A stretch of DNA of 64,000 nucleotides from Aminomonas paucivorans DSM 12260 (GCF_000165795.1 NZ_CM001022.1:2327812-2391811), one strand, 5' to 3'; shown: positions 41,963 through 55,198, counted from the stretch's first letter. Notes: generated by a model from the letters alone, not told the origin. Numbers and translations: made by a program.

Positions 41963-42075
41963 GTCCTCTCCTCCTTATTCGATCGTCTTGCTCCCCCCGG
42001 GAGTGGTGGATCTAAACTAGCCCCTGAGTGGAGTTCTCGTTTCGTCGGCCTCCGCCGTCTCGATCTCCGAAGGGG

Positions 42076-43401
42076 CTAGGCCCCTTCGGGCAGCAGGTAT
42101 TCCGGTTCCGGGGCCCCCGGGTCGTACGCCGGCCCCTCCGGGTGCGGGGAGGGCTTCGGTCTGGGGGTGGGTTTCGGCTGCGGCTTCGGCGTAGGTTGGG
42201 GCTTCGGCTGCGCCGAGGGAGTGGGCTTCAGGTCCGGGCTCGCCTTGGCCGCCCCCGGGGAGGGGTGCGCCCCGGGAGAAGGTTTCGCCGCAGGGGAGGG
42301 CTTCGTCCCGAGGGTGGGCACCGGGGTGGGGGACGGATCCGGGGTCAGGGGCACCAGGGGGAAGGGGAAGTTCACCCGCAGGTGGGTCACCCGCTTCAGG
42401 GGCGAGTCCGGTCCGTTTTTCGTCACCGACGGCAGGGGCTGCCACTCCCCTCCCTCCAGGCGCACGTCCACCGAGGGGGTGCGGACGATACGGTCGAAGA
42501 TCTGCCCCGCCTCGTCCCGCTCCTGAGGCCCCGGCACCAGGAAGCCCGAGAAGAGGGGCTCCCGGCCCGGCTCGCTGTACTCCGGCGCCACCGGGGCGAT
42601 GATGAGCCACTCCGGCTCGTACCAGGCGGCCTTCATCTCCGGGGACTTGGCGTGGCGCTCCGGAAGGATCTGGAATCCCCCCCGCTCCCCCGGAGGGGCG
42701 GTGGAGATGCACACCACCCCGGGGTGGTTGGCCCGGATGCGCCCCACCCCCTGGAACTGGCTGCCCTCGAAGAAGCCGATGCCCGAAAAGGGGTGCACCA
42801 CCTTGGCCACCTGGAGGGACCGGCCGGGCCAGTGCACCGTCACCGCCCCCTCCAGGCGGTTCTCGAACTCCACGGAGAGGGGGCAGTCCGCCCGGGGGTG
42901 GACGGTATATTCCAGGGCCACCGCCTGCTTCAGGGACTCCTCGGAGAGGGGCTGCCGGGCCCCGGACTTGTCGATGGCCGTCACCGGGGTCCCCACGGTG
43001 GGAGCCCAGGCCCCCCAGAGGCTCTGCCCTCCCACGCTGTCCACCACCACGGCGCTGGCGGGACGGGAGGCGGGGGCGATGGTGAAGGTGGGGATCAGGC
43101 TGATGATCCGCCCCCTCCCCCGCTCCACCGCCAGGAGCAGGTGGATGGCGTTGGCCCCCGTGGCGGCCACGCAGCCCGGCCGGGCCCACTTGGAGGCGTC
43201 GAACCCCGGCCAGAGGGAGCGGTAGGGGACGCTGCGCACCTCCCCCACCTGACGCACCGTGCCGTCGGGCAGGTAGACCCGCACCTGGCGTCCCGGCTCC
43301 AGGGGGATGACCACGGTGAACAGGGACTGGGCCGACGCGGGAACGGCACAACAGAGAACGGCAAGGCACAGGATCGCCCGCCGGAAAAACCATGGGAGCA
43401 T
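42076..43401 (-). CDS. Secreted protein of unknown function with Pro-rich C-terminal tail
   Basis: 441 residues from ATG 43401 (GAGGAGG upstream). A signal peptide (1-25, ILCLAVLCCAVPASA) leads into a mainly beta-strand part of about 310 residues, with VYLPDGTVRQVGEVRS, RPGCVAATGANAIHLLLA and VHWPGRSLQVAKVVHPF, then about 100 residues built of P-x-P repeats with Lys and Ser. No domain is recognised. The tail could span or bind the cell envelope. No membrane anchor is seen at the C-terminus. Confidence 0.75.
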   Translation of the reverse strand: MLPWFFRRAILCLAVLCCAVPASAQSLFTVVIPLEPGRQVRVYLPDGTVRQVGEVRSVPYRSLWPGFDASKWARPGCVAATGANAIHLLLAVERGRGRIISLIPTFTIAPASRPASAVVVDSVGGQSLWGAWAPTVGTPVTAIDKSGARQPLSEESLKQAVALEYTVHPRADCPLSVEFENRLEGAVTVHWPGRSLQVAKVVHPFSGIGFFEGSQFQGVGRIRANHPGVVCISTAPPGERGGFQILPERHAKSPEMKAAWYEPEWLIIAPVAPEYSEPGREPLFSGFLVPGPQERDEAGQIFDRIVRTPSVDVRLEGGEWQPLPSVTKNGPDSPLKRVTHLRVNFPFPLVPLTPDPSPTPVPTLGTKPSPAAKPSPGAHPSPGAAKASPDLKPTPSAQPKPQPTPKPQPKPTPRPKPSPHPEGPAYDPGAPEPEYLLPEGA

Positions 43402-43461
43402 GGGACCGACCTCCTCGCGAACACCCGGAGGGGACGATCGTGACCCGCTCCGCGAAACGCC

Positions 43462-43470
43462 ATGATACCA
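43462..43470 (-). promoter_or_regulatory. Extended -10 promoter of the secreted Pro-rich protein gene
   Basis: On the minus strand TGG-TATCAT, an extended -10, about 60 bases before the ATG at 43401. Confidence 0.4.
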
Positions 43471-43510
43471 CTTCCCCACCGAGGGTCCCGGGGATCGCGC
43501 GGGACCCCGG

Positions 43511-43519
43511 TGGTATCCT
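43511..43519 (+). promoter_or_regulatory. Extended -10 promoter of the AEC transporter gene
   Basis: TGG-TATCCT, an extended -10 identical to the one before ilvA, about 40 bases before ATG 43558. It is back to back with the minus-strand promoter near 43465. Confidence 0.4.
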
Positions 43520-43557
43520 AAGGACCGATCCACGCTGCGGAAGGGAAGGTCGTCTCC

Positions 43558-44490
43558 ATGAAGGGAATCGCCATCCTGCTGCCCCTGGGGCTCGTGGTCG
43601 CCCTGGGGGCCCTGCTTCGCCGACGAGGGCTCCTGCCCCGGGAGGTGGTGCCCTGCCTCACGGGGCTGCTCTACTGGGTGGCCCTCCCGGCGCTTCTGCT
43701 GCGCACCGCCGCCTCCGCGGGGGCGGAGGCCCTGGGACACCCCGCCTTCTTCCTGGGGGTGAACCTGCCCTTCCTGGCGGTGCCCCTCCTGGCCTGGGGG
43801 ATCGCCCGGTGGGCACACCGGGGAAACCGGCCCCGGCAGGCCTTCTCCGCCTTCGCCTCCATCCGGGCCAACAACGTCTACCTGGGGCTGCCCGCGGTGA
43901 CCCTGGCCATGGGAGAGCCGGGGGTACAGGCTCTGTCCGCCTATCTGGCGGCGGGGCTGGTGGGGTACAACGTGGCCTCCCTGGCCTGGGCGGAGCTGGT
44001 GCGCACGGGAAGGCTGGACCTTCCCACCCTGGGCAGGGCCCTGGGACGTCTGGCCCGCAACCCCCTGATCCTCTCCACCCTGGGGGGACTGGCCTGCGCC
44101 GCCGCGGGACTGGAACGCTTCCCCGCCCCCCTGGACCTGCCCCTGAAGATCCTGGGGGACACCGCCTCGGGGCTGGCACTGCTCTCCCTGGGGGCCTCCC
44201 TGGAGTTCCGCGCCCTGGGCAGGGCGGTGCGCTCCACCCTGCCGGACAGCCTGGTGAAGCTCCTGCTCCACCCCGCCCTGGCCTGGCTCTGCCTTCTGCC
44301 CTTCGGTCTGCCCCGGGAGCTGGTGTCCGCCTCGGTGCTGGTGTCCGCCATGCCCCACGCGGTGAACTGCTTCATCGTGGCCCAGGAGATGGACCTGGAC
44401 GCCCCCTACGCCGCCGACGCGGTGCTGGGCTCCACCCTGCTCTCCGCCCTCAGCTTCCCCCTCTGGCTGGCGGTCCTGGGTCTGGGCTGA
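43558..44490 (+). CDS. AEC-family (auxin efflux carrier-like) transporter
   Basis: 310 residues, ATG 43558. About ten hydrophobic helices; SIRANNVYLGLPAVTLAMGE is the conserved region of the family, with ARNPLILSTLGG in the middle. Bacterial AEC proteins export malate, malonate or amino acids. The 3' end overlaps the convergent EPS membrane gene by 41 bases. Confidence 0.88.
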   Translation: MKGIAILLPLGLVVALGALLRRRGLLPREVVPCLTGLLYWVALPALLLRTAASAGAEALGHPAFFLGVNLPFLAVPLLAWGIARWAHRGNRPRQAFSAFASIRANNVYLGLPAVTLAMGEPGVQALSAYLAAGLVGYNVASLAWAELVRTGRLDLPTLGRALGRLARNPLILSTLGGLACAAAGLERFPAPLDLPLKILGDTASGLALLSLGASLEFRALGRAVRSTLPDSLVKLLLHPALAWLCLLPFGLPRELVSASVLVSAMPHAVNCFIVAQEMDLDAPYAADAVLGSTLLSALSFPLWLAVLGLG

Positions 44491-45550
44491 CCGAGACCGC
44501 CTCCCGGACGACCTCCACCCACCGTCTCGCCACGGGGGAGTGGGTCGTCATGTCGTGCCATCCCCAGAGGACGGAGAGGAGCAGGACCCCCAGGATCAGG
44601 GCGCTGCCGCCTTTCCCGTGTCCCCTCCAATGAAACGCCGGCAGGAGGAAGAGGGCCACCCCCAGGGCTCCCAGGAGCATCCGGTCCAGGCTGCACCCCC
44701 CCGGAACCAGAAACCACAGGCCCACCCAGACGACCCCGCAGACCGCCCAGAACCGGCTGGCCCGCCCCTCGGTTCCCCAGAGGAACACCGTCCCCGCCGC
44801 CAGGATCCCCACGGTGGGGGGGAGCACCTCGGCACAGAGGGTCAGGAGCTGGGGGGCCGGAGGGAAGACCCCGCCCCCCGCTCCGAAGAGGCGCCGGAGA
44901 AACCCGACCCCGAAGGCGAACAGCCCCAGGGGGGTGAAGATCACGGTGTACAGGGCCAGGGTCTTGTGCCGATCCCCCTCGAAGGCCCCCCAGAGCCCCA
45001 GGGCCAGCCCCAGGGCCAGCCAGGCCCCCAGGGGGTGGCAGAAGGGGGCGACCCCCAGGGTCAGGGCCCCCAGAAACAGGTAGAGGCTCTTGTCCGTCTT
45101 CCCGTAGTGATGCAGACAGTGGAGGCTCATGGCCAGAAACAGCAGCCCCAGGGTGCCCGAGGGGCTGGTGGTGACCAGCAGGATCACCGCAGGGTGCACG
45201 AAGGCCAGGAGCGAGGCGGCGGTCTTGGTCCCCGGCCCCAGGGGGGCGTCCGCCAGCACCACCAGGAAGCCCAGCACCAGGAGGGCCGCGGCGAAACCGC
45301 AGAGCAGCCCCCAGAGCCGGGCAGGGTCCATCCCCCCCAGGGAGTGGGCCATGAGGGAGGGGATCAGGGGGGTGTCCAGCACCATCTGCGGGGGATTCGC
45401 CAGGGACCTCGCCGCCTTGCCCGTCAGGTCCAGGGCCTCCGGGGTCACCAGCCCCGCGCGGAAGAGACGGGTCGCCGTCTCCCCCACCAGCCCCCCCGTC
45501 GTCAGGGATGCCAGGACCGCCGCGGCGAGAGGCCGATCAGCCCAGTCCAT
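44450..45550 (-). CDS. Multi-pass membrane protein of the exopolysaccharide operon
   Basis: 366 residues, ATG 45550, overlapping the glycosyltransferase gene by 14 bases. Eight to ten predicted membrane helices with a charged first loop; a long segment around 30-75 between helices could be outside. No confident family; it recalls membrane glycosyltransferases or acyltransferases in general shape only. The coupling to the synthase suggests a part in polymer export or modification. Confidence 0.75.
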   Translation of the reverse strand: MDWADRPLAAAVLASLTTGGLVGETATRLFRAGLVTPEALDLTGKAARSLANPPQMVLDTPLIPSLMAHSLGGMDPARLWGLLCGFAAALLVLGFLVVLADAPLGPGTKTAASLLAFVHPAVILLVTTSPSGTLGLLFLAMSLHCLHHYGKTDKSLYLFLGALTLGVAPFCHPLGAWLALGLALGLWGAFEGDRHKTLALYTVIFTPLGLFAFGVGFLRRLFGAGGGVFPPAPQLLTLCAEVLPPTVGILAAGTVFLWGTEGRASRFWAVCGVVWVGLWFLVPGGCSLDRMLLGALGVALFLLPAFHWRGHGKGGSALILGVLLLSVLWGWHDMTTHSPVARRWVEVVREAVSVSPDPGPPARGGS

Positions 45551-47363
45551 GGGTGGTCTTCTCCCAGTAGAAGGGTTTGGTGAAGAGCTGCCACAGGGCC
45601 TTGTAGGCCGCCAGGGAGTGCAGCAGCCAGTAGATCGGGTTCAGGAGGGCGTAGGGGGTGAGGCGGAAGAGCTTCCGCCGGAACACCGCCAGCATGTTGA
45701 GGTGGATCGCCAGGGCGTTGCCCACCACCAGGCAGAAGGTGGACATGGCGAAGACCCCCGGGGGGAAGAGCAGGGACAGGGCTTCGGGGCGCAGGGTCAG
45801 CCAGAGGAGGAACAGCCCCCACAGGAGAGGGTTCACCAGGAAGGTGACGCAGGTGCCTCCGATGAGCAGCTGGAACCCCCAGAAGGCCCGGCCCCCGATG
45901 CGCCGGTAGAGCCGCAGGGGGTGGCGCATGTGCACCAGGTAGGTCTGCATGTACCCCTTGATCCACCGGGAGCGCTGCCGCAGCCAGTTGCCCAGGCGGC
46001 TGTTGGCCTCCTCGTAGGTGGTGGAGTTGAGGGTGGCCACCCGGTAGCGGTGGGCCCCCGCCCGCACCCCCAGGTCCGCGTCCTCCGTCACGTTGAAGGG
46101 ATCCCACCCCCCCAGCTCCCGGAGCACCCGGGTGCGGAAGTGGTTCGACGTGCCCCCCAGGGGGATGGGCAGCCTCAGGGCTTCGATGCCCGGGAGCATG
46201 TAGTCGAACCAGTAGGAGTACTCCAGGGTGAACATGCGGGTCAGGAAGTTCTGTTCGCTGTTGTAGTAGTTCAGGGCCGCCTGGATGCACACCAGCTCCG
46301 GCGGCCCCTTGCGGAACGCCGCCACGGCCTTCTTCAGCTGGTCCCGCTCCGGCACGTCCTCCGCATCGTAGATGGTGAGGTACTCCCCCTTGGCGAAGAG
46401 GAGGCCGTAGTTGCAGGCCTTGGGCTTGGTGGTGGGCACCGAACGGGGGACCCGGACGATCTGAAAGTTCGCCGGAGGCCGCGCCTCCCGGAAGGCCTGG
46501 AGGGTCTGGGGGTCGTCCTCCTCCAGGAGCACCTTCACGTCCAGGCGGCTGGCGGGGTAGTCCAGATTCCGGATGCCCTCCACGAGCTTGGGCACCACCC
46601 CGGGTTCCCGGTACAGGGGCAACAGAAGGGTGTAGACCGGCAGATCCTCCTCCCGAAGCGCCGCCACCTCCTCGTCGGACACCTGTTCCTGGATCTCGTA
46701 CCGCGCCCCCTGGAGGGAGGCGGCCAGCTTGAACAGGATGGACACCAGATAGAAGGCGTTCACCGCCACGAAAAGCGCCGTCCCCGTCCGGGTCGGGTCC
46801 CGCCAGAACGCCGCCGCGAGCAGGGAGACCAGGGCCCCCAGGAAGAGGATCTGCCCCCCCGAAAAGGTCACCAGGGCGGACTCCTCGGGAGTCCGGAAGA
46901 AGAGCCCCATGACGCTCTCGTCCACGTAGCGCTTTCGGAAGCTCCGGTCCAGGGCGAAGTACAGATCCCGGTCGCTGGTGACGAAGGGCTCCACCGGACA
47001 GCCCAGGCGACGGGCCAGTTCCTCCAGTCCCTCCCGATCCTCCGGGTTCACCAGGGCCACCCCCAGGACGCCCCCCTCCCCCACCTCGCAGGGCACCATC
47101 TGGCGACGGCGGAGGAAGTCCTCCCCCACCCCCCGGACCCCCAGGCTCACCGCCTCCGGGTCCGGGGGTTCCTCCACCAGGTTCCGGTAGGGCAGGCCGG
47201 ACTGCTCCGAGAGAACCCGGGCCAGCTGCTGCCCGTTGATGATCCCCTGGGCCATGAGGATGGTGCCGATGGGGGACCCCCAGATCTTCTGGATTCCCAG
47301 GGCCCGGTCCAGATCCTCCTGCCCGATGTCCCCGCTTTTCAGCAGGGCCTCGCCCACCCGCAT
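45537..47363 (-). CDS. MshEN-domain glycosyltransferase 2, BcsA/NfrB-like polysaccharide synthase
   Basis: 608 residues from ATG 47363. Residues 1-145 are an MshEN-type domain (RVGEALLKSGDIGQEDLDRA and PIGTILMAQGIINGQQLA, the two Leu/Gly repeats that bind c-di-GMP in MshE-like proteins). Two membrane helices (168-217) come next, then a family-2 transferase (243-470) with DAED 333-336, TED 426-428 and QRSRW 463-467, and four or five C-terminal helices. BcsA carries a PilZ domain for c-di-GMP; none is present. NfrB also joins GT2 and MshEN, in the opposite order. It lies 7 bases after a BcsB-like gene. Predicted product: a beta-linked exopolysaccharide. Confidence 0.88.
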   Translation of the reverse strand: MRVGEALLKSGDIGQEDLDRALGIQKIWGSPIGTILMAQGIINGQQLARVLSEQSGLPYRNLVEEPPDPEAVSLGVRGVGEDFLRRRQMVPCEVGEGGVLGVALVNPEDREGLEELARRLGCPVEPFVTSDRDLYFALDRSFRKRYVDESVMGLFFRTPEESALVTFSGGQILFLGALVSLLAAAFWRDPTRTGTALFVAVNAFYLVSILFKLAASLQGARYEIQEQVSDEEVAALREEDLPVYTLLLPLYREPGVVPKLVEGIRNLDYPASRLDVKVLLEEDDPQTLQAFREARPPANFQIVRVPRSVPTTKPKACNYGLLFAKGEYLTIYDAEDVPERDQLKKAVAAFRKGPPELVCIQAALNYYNSEQNFLTRMFTLEYSYWFDYMLPGIEALRLPIPLGGTSNHFRTRVLRELGGWDPFNVTEDADLGVRAGAHRYRVATLNSTTYEEANSRLGNWLRQRSRWIKGYMQTYLVHMRHPLRLYRRIGGRAFWGFQLLIGGTCVTFLVNPLLWGLFLLWLTLRPEALSLLFPPGVFAMSTFCLVVGNALAIHLNMLAVFRRKLFRLTPYALLNPIYWLLHSLAAYKALWQLFTKPFYWEKTTHGLG

Positions 47364-47370
47364 GGCGTCC

Positions 47371-49350
47371 TCACTCCTGATCCCGCGACTCCGAGTCGGA
47401 GAACCGGCGCTTCTTCTCCTCCTGGGCCCCCCGGCGCCGGGAGTTCTGGCCGAAGTACAGCCGCGCCAGCAGCGCCGCCAGGAGCACCCAGGCGCCGAAG
47501 AACACGTAGGGGCGGAACCGCTCGTACCCGTACCAGGGGAACGCGGGCTTGCCCTCCTCCTCCACCCGGAGGAGCTGCTCCCGGGTATCCAGCACCGTGG
47601 CCCGCCCGGGGTCCTGGAAGAGGAAGACGTTCCCCGAAAGCCGCCCCAGATGGGCCGGATCCTCCATCCACGCCCCCGCCCTCTGGAGCACCTCCGGACG
47701 GACCACCGCCTGCAGCGCCAGGGAGGGCACCCCGGCAAGGCTTCCCACCTGCCCCACCGCCAGGGGAACCTCCGGGCGTCCCCTGAAGAGGACCTTCCGG
47801 TCCGGCAGGCGGACCAGGGTGGAGGCGTCGGTGAGGGTGAGGGGAAAGTCCGGCTTCAGCCCCTCCGGGAGGGCCTTCCCTGAAACGGCCACCGCGTACC
47901 CCACCCCCTTCAGGTCCCCGGGCTCCTGGAGGAAGCGGACCTCCGGGAAGGGGAACCGGTCCGGGGGAAGGGTGGCGCAGAGAGCACCCCAAAGGTGCGC
48001 CGCCGCGGCCAGGCCCATCCCCTTCAGGTCCCGATCCACCAGCAGGACGCCCCGCCCCGTCATGGCCAGGGGGAACCCGACAACTCCCAGACGCGCCGCC
48101 GATCCGGAGCCGGTCACCCGGGCACCGCTGCCCGGGTAGAGCTCCGCCCGGCGCAGGGCGGGCTGCACCCGACAGGGGCTGCCCGCCTTCCCGTAGCGGA
48201 AGAGCAGCCGCAGATCGTTGCGGGGACCGATCCCCAGCTCCGGGGGAACCGGGACCTTCAGGTCGAACCGCCCCCCGGGAAGGGCCGCGCTGGCCGCCAG
48301 GGCTCCGTTCCACAACACGTCCACCTGCACGGGGACCCGGGGGTCCTCCGGGACGGAGCAGGCCCCCCGAAGGGTCAGCTCCACCGCCCCCGGGACGGAG
48401 GCGTCCGAAGCGGCGTAGACCGTCCCCTCCAGCTCCGCCGTCAGGACCCCCTCGCCCCGCAGGGTCCCCCGGAGGGGCAGGAAGGAGGGAATCCCTTCGG
48501 GCTTGCGGGAATCCGACTCCTCCACCCCCAGGACCGCCGAGGCGGCGGCTCCCATCAGGGACAGGTCCGCCACCTGCCGGGCCACCGCCGTCAGGGCGGT
48601 CCCGTCGGCCCCGGAAATCAGGAGATCCCGCCCTCCCTCCACCCGAAGCCCCGAAGCGGACTGGGGATCCGTCTGCACCCGTACCCGGGGGAGGACCCCC
48701 GCCCCGGCCTCCTCGGATCCCCGGAGGAAGAAGACCCGTCCGGGAAAGCGCCGGGAGAACCGGGCGAAGAGGCCCACCGCCGAGGCGACCTCCTCCGGGG
48801 TGGGCTCGTCGGGGAGGACCACCGCCACCCCGTTCTGGAGCGCCGCCACCCAGTCCGCGGCGGTCTTCACCGGCAGGGGGGCGTACCGGAGCACCAGGGC
48901 CGTCTGGGGCCGGAGGGTCACGTTCAGGTTCCCCCCGAAGGCGTCCCGACACAGGTCGTCGGTCCGGTGGATTCGGGTGCGCACCCGCAGGGACACCCCG
49001 GACTCCCCATCCCGAGCGGGATCCAGAGGCAGGCTCAGGCGAACCTCCCCGGAGACGCCTCCCAGGGTTCGGGACACCGGGGGACGCCCCTCCAGGTCCG
49101 CCAGGACCACGCTGTCCCCCGCAAGCCCCGGAGGCGCGGAGAGGGCCAGATCCACCCGGCTCCCGGGAAGGACCTTGCCTCGGGGGAGGGGAAAGTAGAA
49201 GGTCCGCTCCCCCCGGGGACCCTCCAGGGAGACTCCCTCCCGATAGCCCAGGTCCGCGAGGGTCACCGCCCGTTCCTCCGCCGAGGCGACCCCCAGCAGG
49301 GAGGTCCCCAGCAACAACGCCGCGATCCACCCTTTCCAGCCCGTCTTCAT
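47371..49350 (-). CDS. BcsB-like membrane-anchored periplasmic subunit of the polysaccharide synthase
   Basis: 659 residues, ATG 49350 after AAAGGAG. A signal peptide (1-24), long beta-rich carbohydrate-binding-like domains and one C-terminal membrane helix (about 617-637) followed by a basic cytoplasmic tail. SLEGPRGERTFYFPLPRG and HRTDDLCRDAFGGNLNVTL match the BcsB pattern. BcsB guides cellulose across the periplasm and is essential for BcsA activity. Sequence conservation is modest, so the polymer may differ from cellulose. Confidence 0.82.
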   Translation of the reverse strand: MKTGWKGWIAALLLGTSLLGVASAEERAVTLADLGYREGVSLEGPRGERTFYFPLPRGKVLPGSRVDLALSAPPGLAGDSVVLADLEGRPPVSRTLGGVSGEVRLSLPLDPARDGESGVSLRVRTRIHRTDDLCRDAFGGNLNVTLRPQTALVLRYAPLPVKTAADWVAALQNGVAVVLPDEPTPEEVASAVGLFARFSRRFPGRVFFLRGSEEAGAGVLPRVRVQTDPQSASGLRVEGGRDLLISGADGTALTAVARQVADLSLMGAAASAVLGVEESDSRKPEGIPSFLPLRGTLRGEGVLTAELEGTVYAASDASVPGAVELTLRGACSVPEDPRVPVQVDVLWNGALAASAALPGGRFDLKVPVPPELGIGPRNDLRLLFRYGKAGSPCRVQPALRRAELYPGSGARVTGSGSAARLGVVGFPLAMTGRGVLLVDRDLKGMGLAAAAHLWGALCATLPPDRFPFPEVRFLQEPGDLKGVGYAVAVSGKALPEGLKPDFPLTLTDASTLVRLPDRKVLFRGRPEVPLAVGQVGSLAGVPSLALQAVVRPEVLQRAGAWMEDPAHLGRLSGNVFLFQDPGRATVLDTREQLLRVEEEGKPAFPWYGYERFRPYVFFGAWVLLAALLARLYFGQNSRRRGAQEEKKRRFSDSESRDQE

Positions 49351-49383
49351 GCCCCGTCGTCTCCTTTCTTCCCCCTGGCGCCC

Positions 49384-50445
49384 TCAGGTCCAGTCCGCTC
49401 GACCCGATTCCTTCAGGTGATCCACCAGGCGGCGCAGTTCCCCCACCCGATCCCGAGGGCACACCAGCACCCCCTCGGGGCACGCCGCCACCACCAGATC
49501 CCGCACTCCGAAGAGGGCCACCCTCTGGGAGCCCTCGTCCACGATGCAGTCCCGGCACTCCAGCAACGCCGCCCTTCCGGCGGAGACGTTGCCGTCCCGA
49601 TCCCGGGGCCGGATCCGCTCCAGGGAGCGCCAATCTCCCAGGTCGTCCCAGCCGAAGTCCCCGGGGAGCACAAAGAAGGACGAGAGCCTCGAAAGCAGGG
49701 CGTATTCCAGGGAGATCGCCGGGAGGGACCGGTGCACCCGCTTCCGCTCCTCCCCGTCCCGATCCCTCCAGGCCCGAAGGAACCCCTCGTACCCCTCCCG
49801 GAGCCGGGGATCGATCCGCCCCGCCAGCTCCGCCAGCCGCCGCACCTGGAAGACGTAGATCCCCGTGTTCCACAGGACCTCCCCACCCCGGATCAGGTCC
49901 CGGGCCTCTTCCTCCGAGGGCTTCTCCACGAATCCCACCCCCTGGAAGATGCCTCGGACCGGAAGGGGACGAATCCGCAGGTACCCGAACCCCGTCTCGG
50001 GACGGGTGGGAGGCACCCCAAAGAAGAGCATCCGCCCGGAGTTTCCCCAGGTCAGGGCCACCTCCAGAAGGGACCGGAAGCGCCGTTCGTCGGCGATGCG
50101 GTGGTCCGAGGGAAGCACCGCCACCACCTCTCCCTCCCCGCGGAGGGAGGCGATGCGGGCGCATCCCAGCAGCACCGCTGCGGCGGTGCTGCGTCCTTCC
50201 GGCTCCAGGAGGATCTGGGGCTCCGGGACCTCGGGAAGGAACTGCCGGACGAGGGGCTCGTGACGCTCCCCCGTCACCAGGAAAACCCGTTCCTCTCCCA
50301 CCAGGGCTACCGCCCGGTCCCAGGTTCGGGCCGCCATGACCCGATCCCCTCCCGCCAGGGGAAGGAACTGTTTGGGACGGGACCGGGTGCTGCGAGGCCA
50401 GAAACGCACCCCCTCTCCTCCCGCCAGGATCAGGATCGAAGGCAT
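49384..50445 (-). CDS. manC: Mannose-1-phosphate guanylyltransferase
   Basis: 353 residues, ATG 50445 after GGGAGG. Nucleotidyltransferase signature LAGGEGVRFWPRSTRSRPKQFLPL, then GEERVFLVTGERH, VAVLPSDHRI, FVEKPS and WNTGIYVF; the C-terminal isomerase domain of ManC/AlgA is absent. It makes GDP-mannose from GTP and mannose-1-phosphate. It is in the exopolysaccharide operon, so GDP-mannose is a likely donor for the synthase, unlike cellulose (UDP-glucose). Confidence 0.92.
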   Translation of the reverse strand: MPSILILAGGEGVRFWPRSTRSRPKQFLPLAGGDRVMAARTWDRAVALVGEERVFLVTGERHEPLVRQFLPEVPEPQILLEPEGRSTAAAVLLGCARIASLRGEGEVVAVLPSDHRIADERRFRSLLEVALTWGNSGRMLFFGVPPTRPETGFGYLRIRPLPVRGIFQGVGFVEKPSEEEARDLIRGGEVLWNTGIYVFQVRRLAELAGRIDPRLREGYEGFLRAWRDRDGEERKRVHRSLPAISLEYALLSRLSSFFVLPGDFGWDDLGDWRSLERIRPRDRDGNVSAGRAALLECRDCIVDEGSQRVALFGVRDLVVAACPEGVLVCPRDRVGELRRLVDHLKESGRADWT

Positions 50446-50483
50446 GGATGTTCCCTCCCTCCCGGTTCCTGTTCAGTATAGGG

Positions 50484-51572
50484 CTATCGCGTTCCACCGG
50501 TAAACCCGCGAAGGGAAACCCCCAGGGCTCGGCGAAGCCTCTCCGCTTCCCGAGGGCGATCCAGGACGCCGAAGGTCCCCCGCCCCTCCCAGACGCACCA
50601 GGGCACCCCCAGGGATTCCAGGGCCCTGCGAACCTCCCCGAGCCACCGGGCCCGGTCCGCAGGGGGGGAGGAGGCGGTGGCACCGAACTCGGCGCACCAG
50701 ACCGGAATGCCCGTTCTGTCGCTCCACTTCCGGGCCGCATCCAGGGCGGCTCGATGCGGACCCTCCCCCCAGGAACGGGAGGCATAATCCCGCAGGAGCC
50801 CCCGAACTTCCGGGGAAAGAGCCTCCTTCGGCGTTCCCCTCGGGGGATAGGGAACGTCCCGCAGCTCCCTCCAGGCCCCGGGCCCCCAGTCGGCCCCCTG
50901 GTGGGTGAAGGGGTGGGGATCGTAGTAGTGGAACCCCGCCACCAGCCTGTCCTCCTTGGGGGGATCCAGCTCCAGCAGACCCTCCAGGCTCCCCCAACGG
51001 GCCCCGGAAAGCCCCACCCAGAGACGGGGCGCTTCGGCCCGCACCGCCCGGAGGTACCCCTCCTGGAGCCGGGACCACCGTTTCGCGGGAACGTCGAAGG
51101 GTTCGTTCAGGGGTTCCAGCACCACCCGGTCCTCCCGAAGGGTCCCCAGCCGCCTCGCCAGGGAAGAGAGAAGCCGGCGGTGCCGCGCCGCGGCGTCGCC
51201 CCCCCGAAGGATCTCCCGGACCATATGGGGATAGGGATGAAGGTCCACCACCACCACGAGCCCTCCCCGGACCCAACGCTCCACCGCCTCCGTCACCGCG
51301 GCGACCCGATCCGTCAGAAGACGTCCCTCCCCGTCCCAGAGGGCCTCGGGATCCACGGGCAGGCGCACCACCCGAAACCCCGCCCGAAGGATCCGTTCCG
51401 TCGGCAGGGAGACCAGCCGCTCCCCCCAGACCCGGGGATCTCGGGGGGACTGGGCGAAGATCCCCGAGAGGTTCACCCCCGGTCCCGCTTCCATGGGAAA
51501 GCGGGGAGCCCCCCCCGCAATCCCGGCCCACCCCAGCCACAGGACGCAGCACACCGCCGCCAGCCGTCTCAC
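50484..51572 (-). CDS. Exported glycoside hydrolase family 5-like protein
   Basis: 362 residues from GTG 51572 (GGAAGGGTGCCC upstream); a longer start at 51617 is possible. A signal peptide (1-22), then a TIM barrel with VDLHPYPH, the acid/base Glu in LEPLNEPFD, FHYYDPHPF and the nucleophile Glu in PVWCAEFGA. Cellulase family A members cut beta-1,4-glucans or mannans. As first gene of the synthase operon it takes the place of BcsZ, trimming the polymer during secretion. A mannanase specificity would suit the GDP-mannose enzyme next to it. Confidence 0.88.
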   Translation of the reverse strand: MRRLAAVCCVLWLGWAGIAGGAPRFPMEAGPGVNLSGIFAQSPRDPRVWGERLVSLPTERILRAGFRVVRLPVDPEALWDGEGRLLTDRVAAVTEAVERWVRGGLVVVVDLHPYPHMVREILRGGDAAARHRRLLSSLARRLGTLREDRVVLEPLNEPFDVPAKRWSRLQEGYLRAVRAEAPRLWVGLSGARWGSLEGLLELDPPKEDRLVAGFHYYDPHPFTHQGADWGPGAWRELRDVPYPPRGTPKEALSPEVRGLLRDYASRSWGEGPHRAALDAARKWSDRTGIPVWCAEFGATASSPPADRARWLGEVRRALESLGVPWCVWEGRGTFGVLDRPREAERLRRALGVSLRGFTGGTR

Positions 51573-51646
51573 GGGCACCCTTCCTTCCTTGCGGGGATCC
51601 TGACAGCAGGGTAGCATAAGACATCGTTCTCCCCGGAGGTGATCCC

Positions 51647-53541: not shown

Positions 53542-54966
53542 CTAGCGACGCCGCTTCAGCAGGGACAGGGGCGCCAGGAGCAGCAGGGCCAGGGGGCCGT
53601 AGCCGAAGGCGCTGCAGCCGCTGCTGCGATAACGCTCCGTGGGGGTCGCCGACACGAGCTGCCCCGGGTTCGCCGCCACCCGGACGACGTAGTACTCCGC
53701 CTCCACCTTCCCCGTCACCCCGTTGCGATCCCGCACGGCGTTGTCCACCACGTCGAAGTGGAAGGTCCGCTCCGTGGCGGAGGCCGTGCTGTGGGGGGTC
53801 AGGAGGACGAAGCCCGTCATGGTGCGGGTTCCCGAGGCCCCGGCCTCATAGGTGGGCAGGACCAGGAAGATCTCCGACCGAGCCGCAGCATCCGCTGCGG
53901 AACGGCGGAAGGTGAGGTCCGCGTACAGGGTAGACCCGTCCCCCTGGAGCAGGTTCACGGGGGTCACGGCGATGTTCGCCGTGTACCGGTTCACCGGAAC
54001 CCCCATGAAGCGCTGGATGAGGTCCCGGGCCTGGTAGCCGAAGGAGGACGCCCGGACCTGGGAGGCCCGGGTCCCGGAGGTGGTGCCGGTGCCCAGGATC
54101 AGGTTGCGGAACTCCGCGGCCCGCTGGGAGGCCAGGGGATCGCTCCCCAGGCTGTACACCGCTCCGTTGGTGATCCCCGAGAGGGTTTCCCCGATGAGGC
54201 CCACCGTGGGGATCAGGCTCGTCCCGGGGGTAGGCTGGAGGGTCCCCGTGGGGGAAGCCACGGGAGTCTCCGTGGGCAGGGGGGTCTCCGTGGCCCTCGG
54301 CGCCACCGTGGGTGCCGGGGTCAGGGTGGGGGCCAGCGTGGGGACGGGGGACACTACCGGCGTGGGCGTTCCCGTGGGGGTGGACGTGGGAGTGGGCGTG
54401 GCTGCCACTGCCTTGAAGATGGCGATGCGGGCGTCGAGGCTATTTCCTGGCGTATCCGTCGAAACGTTGATGTACGTATTATCGCCAAGGTTGACCATAC
54501 CAGTGGTAGCATAGTTATTTGTCCCCGTATCGGTACTCAGGGCAACCCAGGTATTGGCGCCATCTTTAGCACGAACCACTACCCCATCATAGGCACCCGT
54601 AAGAGTCACACCAACAATAGAAATGGATAACGCGGTGGTCGTTGCCGGAGCAGCCCCGATATTCCCTGAAACCTGGTACGGATAGTAGGTCACCGTGGTG
54701 AAGATCGCGTCGGAGGCCCGCCTTTGAAGTTCCGTGCTGACGGCCGTCCGAATCGCTGCCCCGGCTTCGGTTTCCAGTTCCGCCACGGCGTTCGGCCCTG
54801 CCAGGAGGGCACCATCTGCAGAAATGGCAAAATTATCCGCCGTCAGGATGGTCGTGGGAACCCACGTCCCTACCGTCACGGCCCCCACGATGGCAGGCAG
54901 AGCCACCAACAGGGCCCCCACGAAGAGAATCAAGACCACGCTGAAACGCCTTCCCTTGGTTCGCAT
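53542..54966 (-). CDS. Surface protein with Thr/Pro linker and SYNERG-CTERM tail
   Basis: 474 residues from ATG 54966 (GGGGGAGGGAAG upstream). A signal or anchor helix (about 8-28), a Thr/Ser-rich N-terminal domain (30-190), a linker of about 60 residues made of TP repeats (TPTPTSTPTGTPTP...), a second domain, then the tail SGCSAFGYGP, helix LALLLLAPLSLL and KRRR. The tail is the same type as in the C69 dipeptidase. The DNA for the first domain (about 54430-54850) is near half GC, far below its surroundings, a sign of recombination. No function is recognised; possibly a pilin-like or adhesive envelope protein. Confidence 0.8.
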   Translation of the reverse strand: MRTKGRRFSVVLILFVGALLVALPAIVGAVTVGTWVPTTILTADNFAISADGALLAGPNAVAELETEAGAAIRTAVSTELQRRASDAIFTTVTYYPYQVSGNIGAAPATTTALSISIVGVTLTGAYDGVVVRAKDGANTWVALSTDTGTNNYATTGMVNLGDNTYINVSTDTPGNSLDARIAIFKAVAATPTPTSTPTGTPTPVVSPVPTLAPTLTPAPTVAPRATETPLPTETPVASPTGTLQPTPGTSLIPTVGLIGETLSGITNGAVYSLGSDPLASQRAAEFRNLILGTGTTSGTRASQVRASSFGYQARDLIQRFMGVPVNRYTANIAVTPVNLLQGDGSTLYADLTFRRSAADAAARSEIFLVLPTYEAGASGTRTMTGFVLLTPHSTASATERTFHFDVVDNAVRDRNGVTGKVEAEYYVVRVAANPGQLVSATPTERYRSSGCSAFGYGPLALLLLAPLSLLKRRR

Positions 54967-55198
54967 CTTCCCTCTCCCCCTCTCGACGTCTCTTCGAAAA
55001 AGCCCTCCGCGCGCCGATCCTGCGCGCATCCCACCATCCGCCGATCACCGGATCTACGCGCCTCATTTCACCACGTTCCCCAGACCTCGTCAAGAAACGG
55101 CGCCTCTCTAGCGCGACATAGCAGAAGAAGGAGCCACGGATACCGCCCCCTGGGACGGTCTCCGTAGCTCCCCGACTCCTCGATTCCGCCGAAGGCCC

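Follow-up and report, generated by a model that had tools for sequence, protein, structure and literature searches.

A putative MshEN-controlled exopolysaccharide synthase operon with a BcsB-like partner in Aminomonas paucivorans

Organization of the operon

We have analysed a window of 64,000 nucleotides from the genome of Aminomonas paucivorans DSM 12260, which comprises 2.63 Mb in a single contig. On the minus strand of the window, at 44450–51617, five co-directional ORFs encode a GH5 hydrolase, a ManC-type guanylyltransferase, a BcsB-like subunit, a GT2 synthase with an MshEN domain, and a membrane protein (Table 1). They are separated by 38, 33, and 7 bases, respectively, and the last two overlap by 14 bases; the GT2 ATG is situated within a longer open frame. 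The ORFs, their spacing, and the domain calls bear out the initial annotation of five minus-strand genes with gaps of 7–38 bases or overlaps. The gene order given there also holds, but its limits (45537–51572) do not: the end at 51572 results from the choice of a different GH5 start codon, while a start at 45537 excludes most of the fifth gene.

Table 1 Coordinates of the operon features in the window and the evidence for each.
Feature	Position	Strand	Evidence
Exported GH5 family glycoside hydrolase	50484..51617	-	Pfam Cellulase 1.6e-21; alignment
Mannose-1-phosphate guanylyltransferase, ManC type, without isomerase domain	49384..50445	-	PF00483 and PF22640
BcsB-like periplasmic subunit, C-terminally anchored	47371..49350	-	Pfam BcsB 3.6e-10
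GT2 polysaccharide synthase, N-terminal MshEN	45537..47363	-	Pfam GT2 1.5e-25, MshEN 1e-11
MshEN coding part, residues 1-145	46929..47363	-	Motif I R2-Q25, motif II P31-Q54
Multi-pass membrane protein, predicted GT-C-like fold	44450..45550	-	AlphaFold2/Foldseek; alignment with relatives

At gathering thresholds, the Rfam scan of the window detected neither a riboswitch nor any other RNA. Near the operon, a protein with a Synerg-CTERM sorting domain is encoded at 53542–55029, and the ~2.4 kb downstream of the operon (42000–44400) contain long overlapping frames in which no gene is recognisable.

Conservation of the gene neighbourhood

The gene-neighbourhood survey that had been suggested was carried out on 80 loci with 45–65% identity. 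As these are the best 80 of 565 hits, the survey samples the nearer part of the family. The loci span ~15 phyla, with representatives of Synergistota, Bacillota, Chloroflexota, Thermomicrobiota, Aquificota, Deinococcota, Aerophobota, Thermodesulfobacteriota, Myxococcota, Nitrospinota, Pseudomonadota, Gemmatimonadota, Cyanobacteriota, Bacteroidota, Ignavibacteriota, and Kryptonia. Among these best 80 hits, BcsB lies upstream of the GT2 in 56 of the 58 loci with enough contig (the exceptions are L019 and L025), and the membrane protein lies downstream in 71 of 75, being absent in four cyanobacteria. The linkage is conserved far beyond the host genome, and since the same arrangement recurs across phyla, it is not a matter of chance. 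At L025, the MshEN-GT2 and the membrane protein come after heme biosynthesis genes, and BcsB is missing from the vicinity. An ORF at L019 (4374–6491) was considered as a BcsB candidate, but it gave no match and looks like a spurious frame. The closest relatives of the window GT2 among the best 80 hits are from Synergistaceae; of 41 sampled genomes from the host family and order, only the host's own and one other contain a full-length relative.

The exported hydrolases (GH5, GH113, and others) are interchangeable extras. GH5 also occurs at L021 and, on the opposite strand, at the Mucilaginibacter loci, while GH113, a family mostly of mannanases, is encoded at L072, and homologues of it are present at L046, L060, L073, and L084. 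The operons bearing GH113 come from Nitrospinota and Gammaproteobacteria, and CotH kinase-like and TLC-transporter-like genes accompany them. Separately, an exported protein with a glycoside-hydrolase-like look lies downstream of the core at L028 (12277–13332), L034, L039, L074, and L085, with no Pfam match in those scanned.

The initial annotation had the core content of the operon right but missed a frequent further member, a barrel-like exported protein that is present in 23 of the best 80 loci (e.g., L023:2621–3418, L028:8190–8990, and L072:13290–14231). This protein is beta-rich, has ~270–330 residues, often lies between BcsB and GT2, shows no Pfam match in those scanned, and is possibly an outer-membrane barrel. 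A search of the host genome for an outer-membrane-barrel homologue, which had no positive control, found none.

The synthase and its partner proteins

The window GT2 carries the motifs DAED (residues 333–336), TED (426–428), QRSRW (463–467), and the C-terminal WEKTTHG (600–606). DAED (the reading of the DxD site), TED, and QRxxW do not vary in any of the 55 aligned GT2 sequences, and the same holds for the C-terminal W-x-KT-x-HG segment, which may act as a gating loop. According to the Pfam scan, the GT2 contains no PilZ domain; the protein ends with WEKTTHGLG. In the AlphaFold2 model (pLDDT 91), the synthase matches BcsA, hyaluronan synthase, and chitin synthases by Foldseek, and the N-terminal domain, for which a structure prediction had been proposed, matches PilF GSPIIA.

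The proposal of a BcsB-like partner for the GT2 is borne out by the Pfam match and by the BcsB family profile, which recovers the solved BcsB at 2.5e-17 and also aligns weakly in a second stretch, over the C-terminal anchor. This is the only BcsB match in the host genome. For the hydrolase, the alignment shows conservation of the catalytic residues E172 (NEP) and E310 (EFG), and the suggestion of a glycoside hydrolase in a BcsZ-like slot is supported.

The fifth protein matched no Pfam or NCBIfam family, and a PDB sequence search with its profile gave no usable match, so a fold search was used instead. The top Foldseek matches of its AlphaFold2 model (pLDDT 81) are Pmt4, ALG9, ALG3, and PimE (probability 0.98–1.00), followed by ArnT (0.91–0.94). 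For these GT-C matches, TMq is mostly 0.4–0.5 and the E values are modest (2e-3 to 0.3), while folds other than GT-C reach far lower probabilities. The protein is thus predicted to have a GT-C-like fold, a feature that the initial description as a multi-pass membrane protein, correct in itself, did not capture. An E-K-R-E/K pattern in the first loop, common to the relatives, is mostly gone in the window clade; the window copy retains E38, but the consensus residues E44, E54, and D225 of the relatives are missing. It is also ~100 C-terminal residues shorter than most relatives. A frameshift was considered as the cause and rejected, as tblastn revealed no convincing downstream piece in another frame.

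GDP-mannose supply and the product sugar

The guanylyltransferase matches NTP_transferase (PF00483, 8.7e-28) and the ManC beta-helix (PF22640, 1.8e-10), both above cut-off; its best NCBIfam model, TIGR01479 (4.9e-67), stays below the full-length cut-off and covers the guanylyltransferase part only. Since this enzyme would make GDP-mannose, mannose is probably in the backbone or a side chain of the product. On the other hand, a GDP-mannose gene is not near most of the best 80 loci. The guanylyltransferase is in the operon at five loci, namely the window, L019, L020, and the Aquificaceae loci L028 and L034, and its gene order at L028 and L034 differs from that of the other three. In addition, a PF01050 isomerase lies close to L085, L074 has the same cluster, and a Pfam scan of 80 co-directional neighbour genes found no other nucleotide-sugar enzyme among the 25 commonest families. 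The host genome contains two ManC-like genes, the operon copy included, and the second one counts against the model proposed below.

Alternatively, the product could be cellulose or a mixed-linkage glucan made from UDP-glucose, with the guanylyltransferase as a passenger for another pathway. This is the most serious competing explanation, though we regard it as rather unlikely. The scarcity of GDP-mannose genes across the loci agrees with it, and the best catalytic-domain model for the GT2 is indeed cellulose synthase CelA, but the score of 65.8 is far from the equivalog cut-off of 699.1, and the identity to E. coli BcsA is only 24% over 244 residues. The nearest solved relatives of the GH5 enzyme (endoglucanase H, TmCel5A-type enzymes, and CcsZ, 6uje) are mostly endoglucanases, which would also suit a glucan. 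However, TmCel5A cleaves both mannan and glucan (PMC7710045), so the GH5 cannot decide the product sugar. A passenger role is further disfavoured by the guanylyltransferase having joined the operons of two lineages with differing gene orders, and a glucan by the presence of GH113 in other loci. We retain the mannose-containing product, for which the enzyme in the operon speaks, although it is seen in few lineages. The gene content favours mannose in those lineages and leaves it unproved for the family; a mannan is plausible but unproved.

The c-di-GMP motif and its erosion

The two MshEN motifs of the window protein are RVGEALLKSGDIGQEDLDRALGIQ (motif I) and PIGTILMAQGIINGQQLARVLSEQ (motif II). 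Scored against the published motif (Wang 2016, PMC5013675), 13 of the 14 key c-di-GMP residues agree; the sole mismatch is Pro for Arg at the opening of motif II, which is also seen in several relatives with an otherwise complete motif. The NCBIfam model NF053729, a 53-residue tandem of the MshE type, is matched over positions 1–53 of 53 at 48.5 bits (cut-off 38). The predicted N-terminal MshEN with its c-di-GMP motif is thus confirmed at the sequence level, and the feared absence of nucleotide-binding residues is not the case. In the host genome, GGDEF is matched 20 times and MshEN three times.

Among the GT2s scored, motif integrity is bimodal: 37 GT2s have 11–14 of the 14 residues, and the others no more than 8. 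The MshEN region is kept with an eroded motif in three separate clades (L048–L098 in Bacteroidota; L053, L061, L074, and L085; L068 and L097). On the tree this split requires three changes, and the simplest reading is that the motif was lost in Bacteroidota/Ignavibacteriota/Kryptonia, in cyanobacteria, and in Acetobacterales. A GGDEF scan of 50 relatives' genomes found none in 11, i.e., ten Bacteroidota with an eroded motif and one Chloroflexota MAG with an intact one. The link between GGDEF absence and motif erosion is suggestive only, because the Bacteroidota represent one event and the other two clades keep GGDEF. Still, with the motif eroded in three clades, including GGDEF-less Bacteroidota, not all members of the family are under c-di-GMP control, and since these clades retain the operon, binding of c-di-GMP to MshEN is evidently dispensable for a working synthase.

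These eroded relatives raise the idea that the window MshEN is likewise a structural relic that senses no c-di-GMP. We consider this improbable, as the window domain scores above the cut-off of the curated motif model, retains 13 of 14 key residues, and belongs to a genome rich in GGDEF; the preferred reading remains a sensor of c-di-GMP. At other loci, a response-regulator GGDEF protein (L029) or an HD-GYP-like response regulator (L036) adjoins BcsB. A histidine kinase gene lies directly upstream of BcsB at L048 (5453–6811), L098 (4593–5972), and many other Bacteroidota loci, and may provide another means of control in the absence of c-di-GMP.

An NfrB-like synthase of a ManNAc polymer is very improbable: NfrB is a known MshEN-controlled GT2 and shares the WxKTxH motif, but its model scores 25.2 against a cut-off of 1170, with the alignment confined to the MshEN part, the five genes include neither an nfrA-like nor a wecB-like one, and ManC-type enzymes make GDP-mannose rather than UDP-ManNAc. 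Moreover, the MshEN sits at the opposite end. E. coli NfrB carries WDKTTH shortly ahead of its MshEN, and therefore the sensor is placed on opposite sides of the polymerase in the two architectures.

Proposed model

Taken together, the operon probably encodes a c-di-GMP-controlled, synthase-dependent exopolysaccharide machine with a BcsB partner, a GT-C third subunit, and probably mannose in the product. The GT2 would polymerise a nucleotide sugar, with GDP-mannose presumably supplied by the operon guanylyltransferase, into a beta-linked glycan, which would move through the membrane channel of the GT2 itself to the BcsB-like subunit. Binding of c-di-GMP to MshEN is expected to activate the synthase, and the exported GH5 may trim or release the polymer. 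The GT-C-fold protein would be the third core subunit; ancestrally it was perhaps a periplasmic side-chain glycosyltransferase, and in the window clade it is probably non-catalytic. More tentatively, and with somewhat less than an even chance, the locus may represent a separate, ancient and widespread BcsB-coupled class, combining an N-terminal MshEN-GT2 with a GT-C subunit, that makes a mannose-containing beta-glycan and has lost c-di-GMP control at least three times.

If the model is true, a BcsB-coupled secretion module has been joined to a second type of c-di-GMP switch, at the other polymerase end from PilZ and from the MshEN of NfrB. This would enable comparative study of c-di-GMP gating in such synthases, with the eroded-motif clades as a set of natural variants with a decayed sensor, and it provides a polysaccharide system open to testing in phyla such as Chloroflexota, Aquificota, Synergistota, Deinococcota, Nitrospinota, and Bacteroidota (Mucilaginibacter).

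Comparison with known systems

The combination had been noted as one not known from a described system. We have searched open papers, with subscription journals and preprints outside the coverage, for MshEN with BcsB, GspE_N with cellulose synthase, BcsB with GT-C, and bacterial mannan synthase with c-di-GMP, and the system was not described there. The full architecture thus appears undescribed in the open papers searched, but its parts have precedents: MshEN-glycosyltransferase fusions have been reported (Wang 2016, PMC5013675), the c-di-GMP receptor that accompanies BcsB in Listeria Pss is not of the PilZ type (PMC4125290), and GH5 occurs in a synthase operon.

The operon resembles BcsA-BcsB-BcsZ in its GT2 with acidic, TED, and QxxRW motifs, its BcsB partner, its exported endoglycanase, and its predicted c-di-GMP control. 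It differs in the N-terminal MshEN in place of PilZ, the third subunit with its GT-C fold, a hydrolase of GH5 or GH113 rather than GH8, the low (~24%) identity, and the lack of a detected BcsC-like protein at the window locus. With NfrB/NfrA/YbcH of the E. coli NGR polysaccharide it shares an MshEN-controlled GT2 exopolysaccharide synthase, while there the order of MshEN and glycosyltransferase is reversed, UDP-ManNAc is the supply, and the E. coli operon has no BcsB; a BcsB homologue does adjoin the Achromobacter nfr cluster (PMC8669472). The clostridial Ccs system likewise has a hydrolase (GH5_25) in its synthase operon, and its CcsZ is among the PDB matches of the hydrolase in the window, but CcsA has PilZ and CcsB is not homologous to BcsB (PMC7710045). 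Listeria PssA-E shares a BcsB orthologue, a GT2 polymerase, and c-di-GMP control without PilZ, but there c-di-GMP is received by a protein of its own, the degenerate GGDEF protein PssE.
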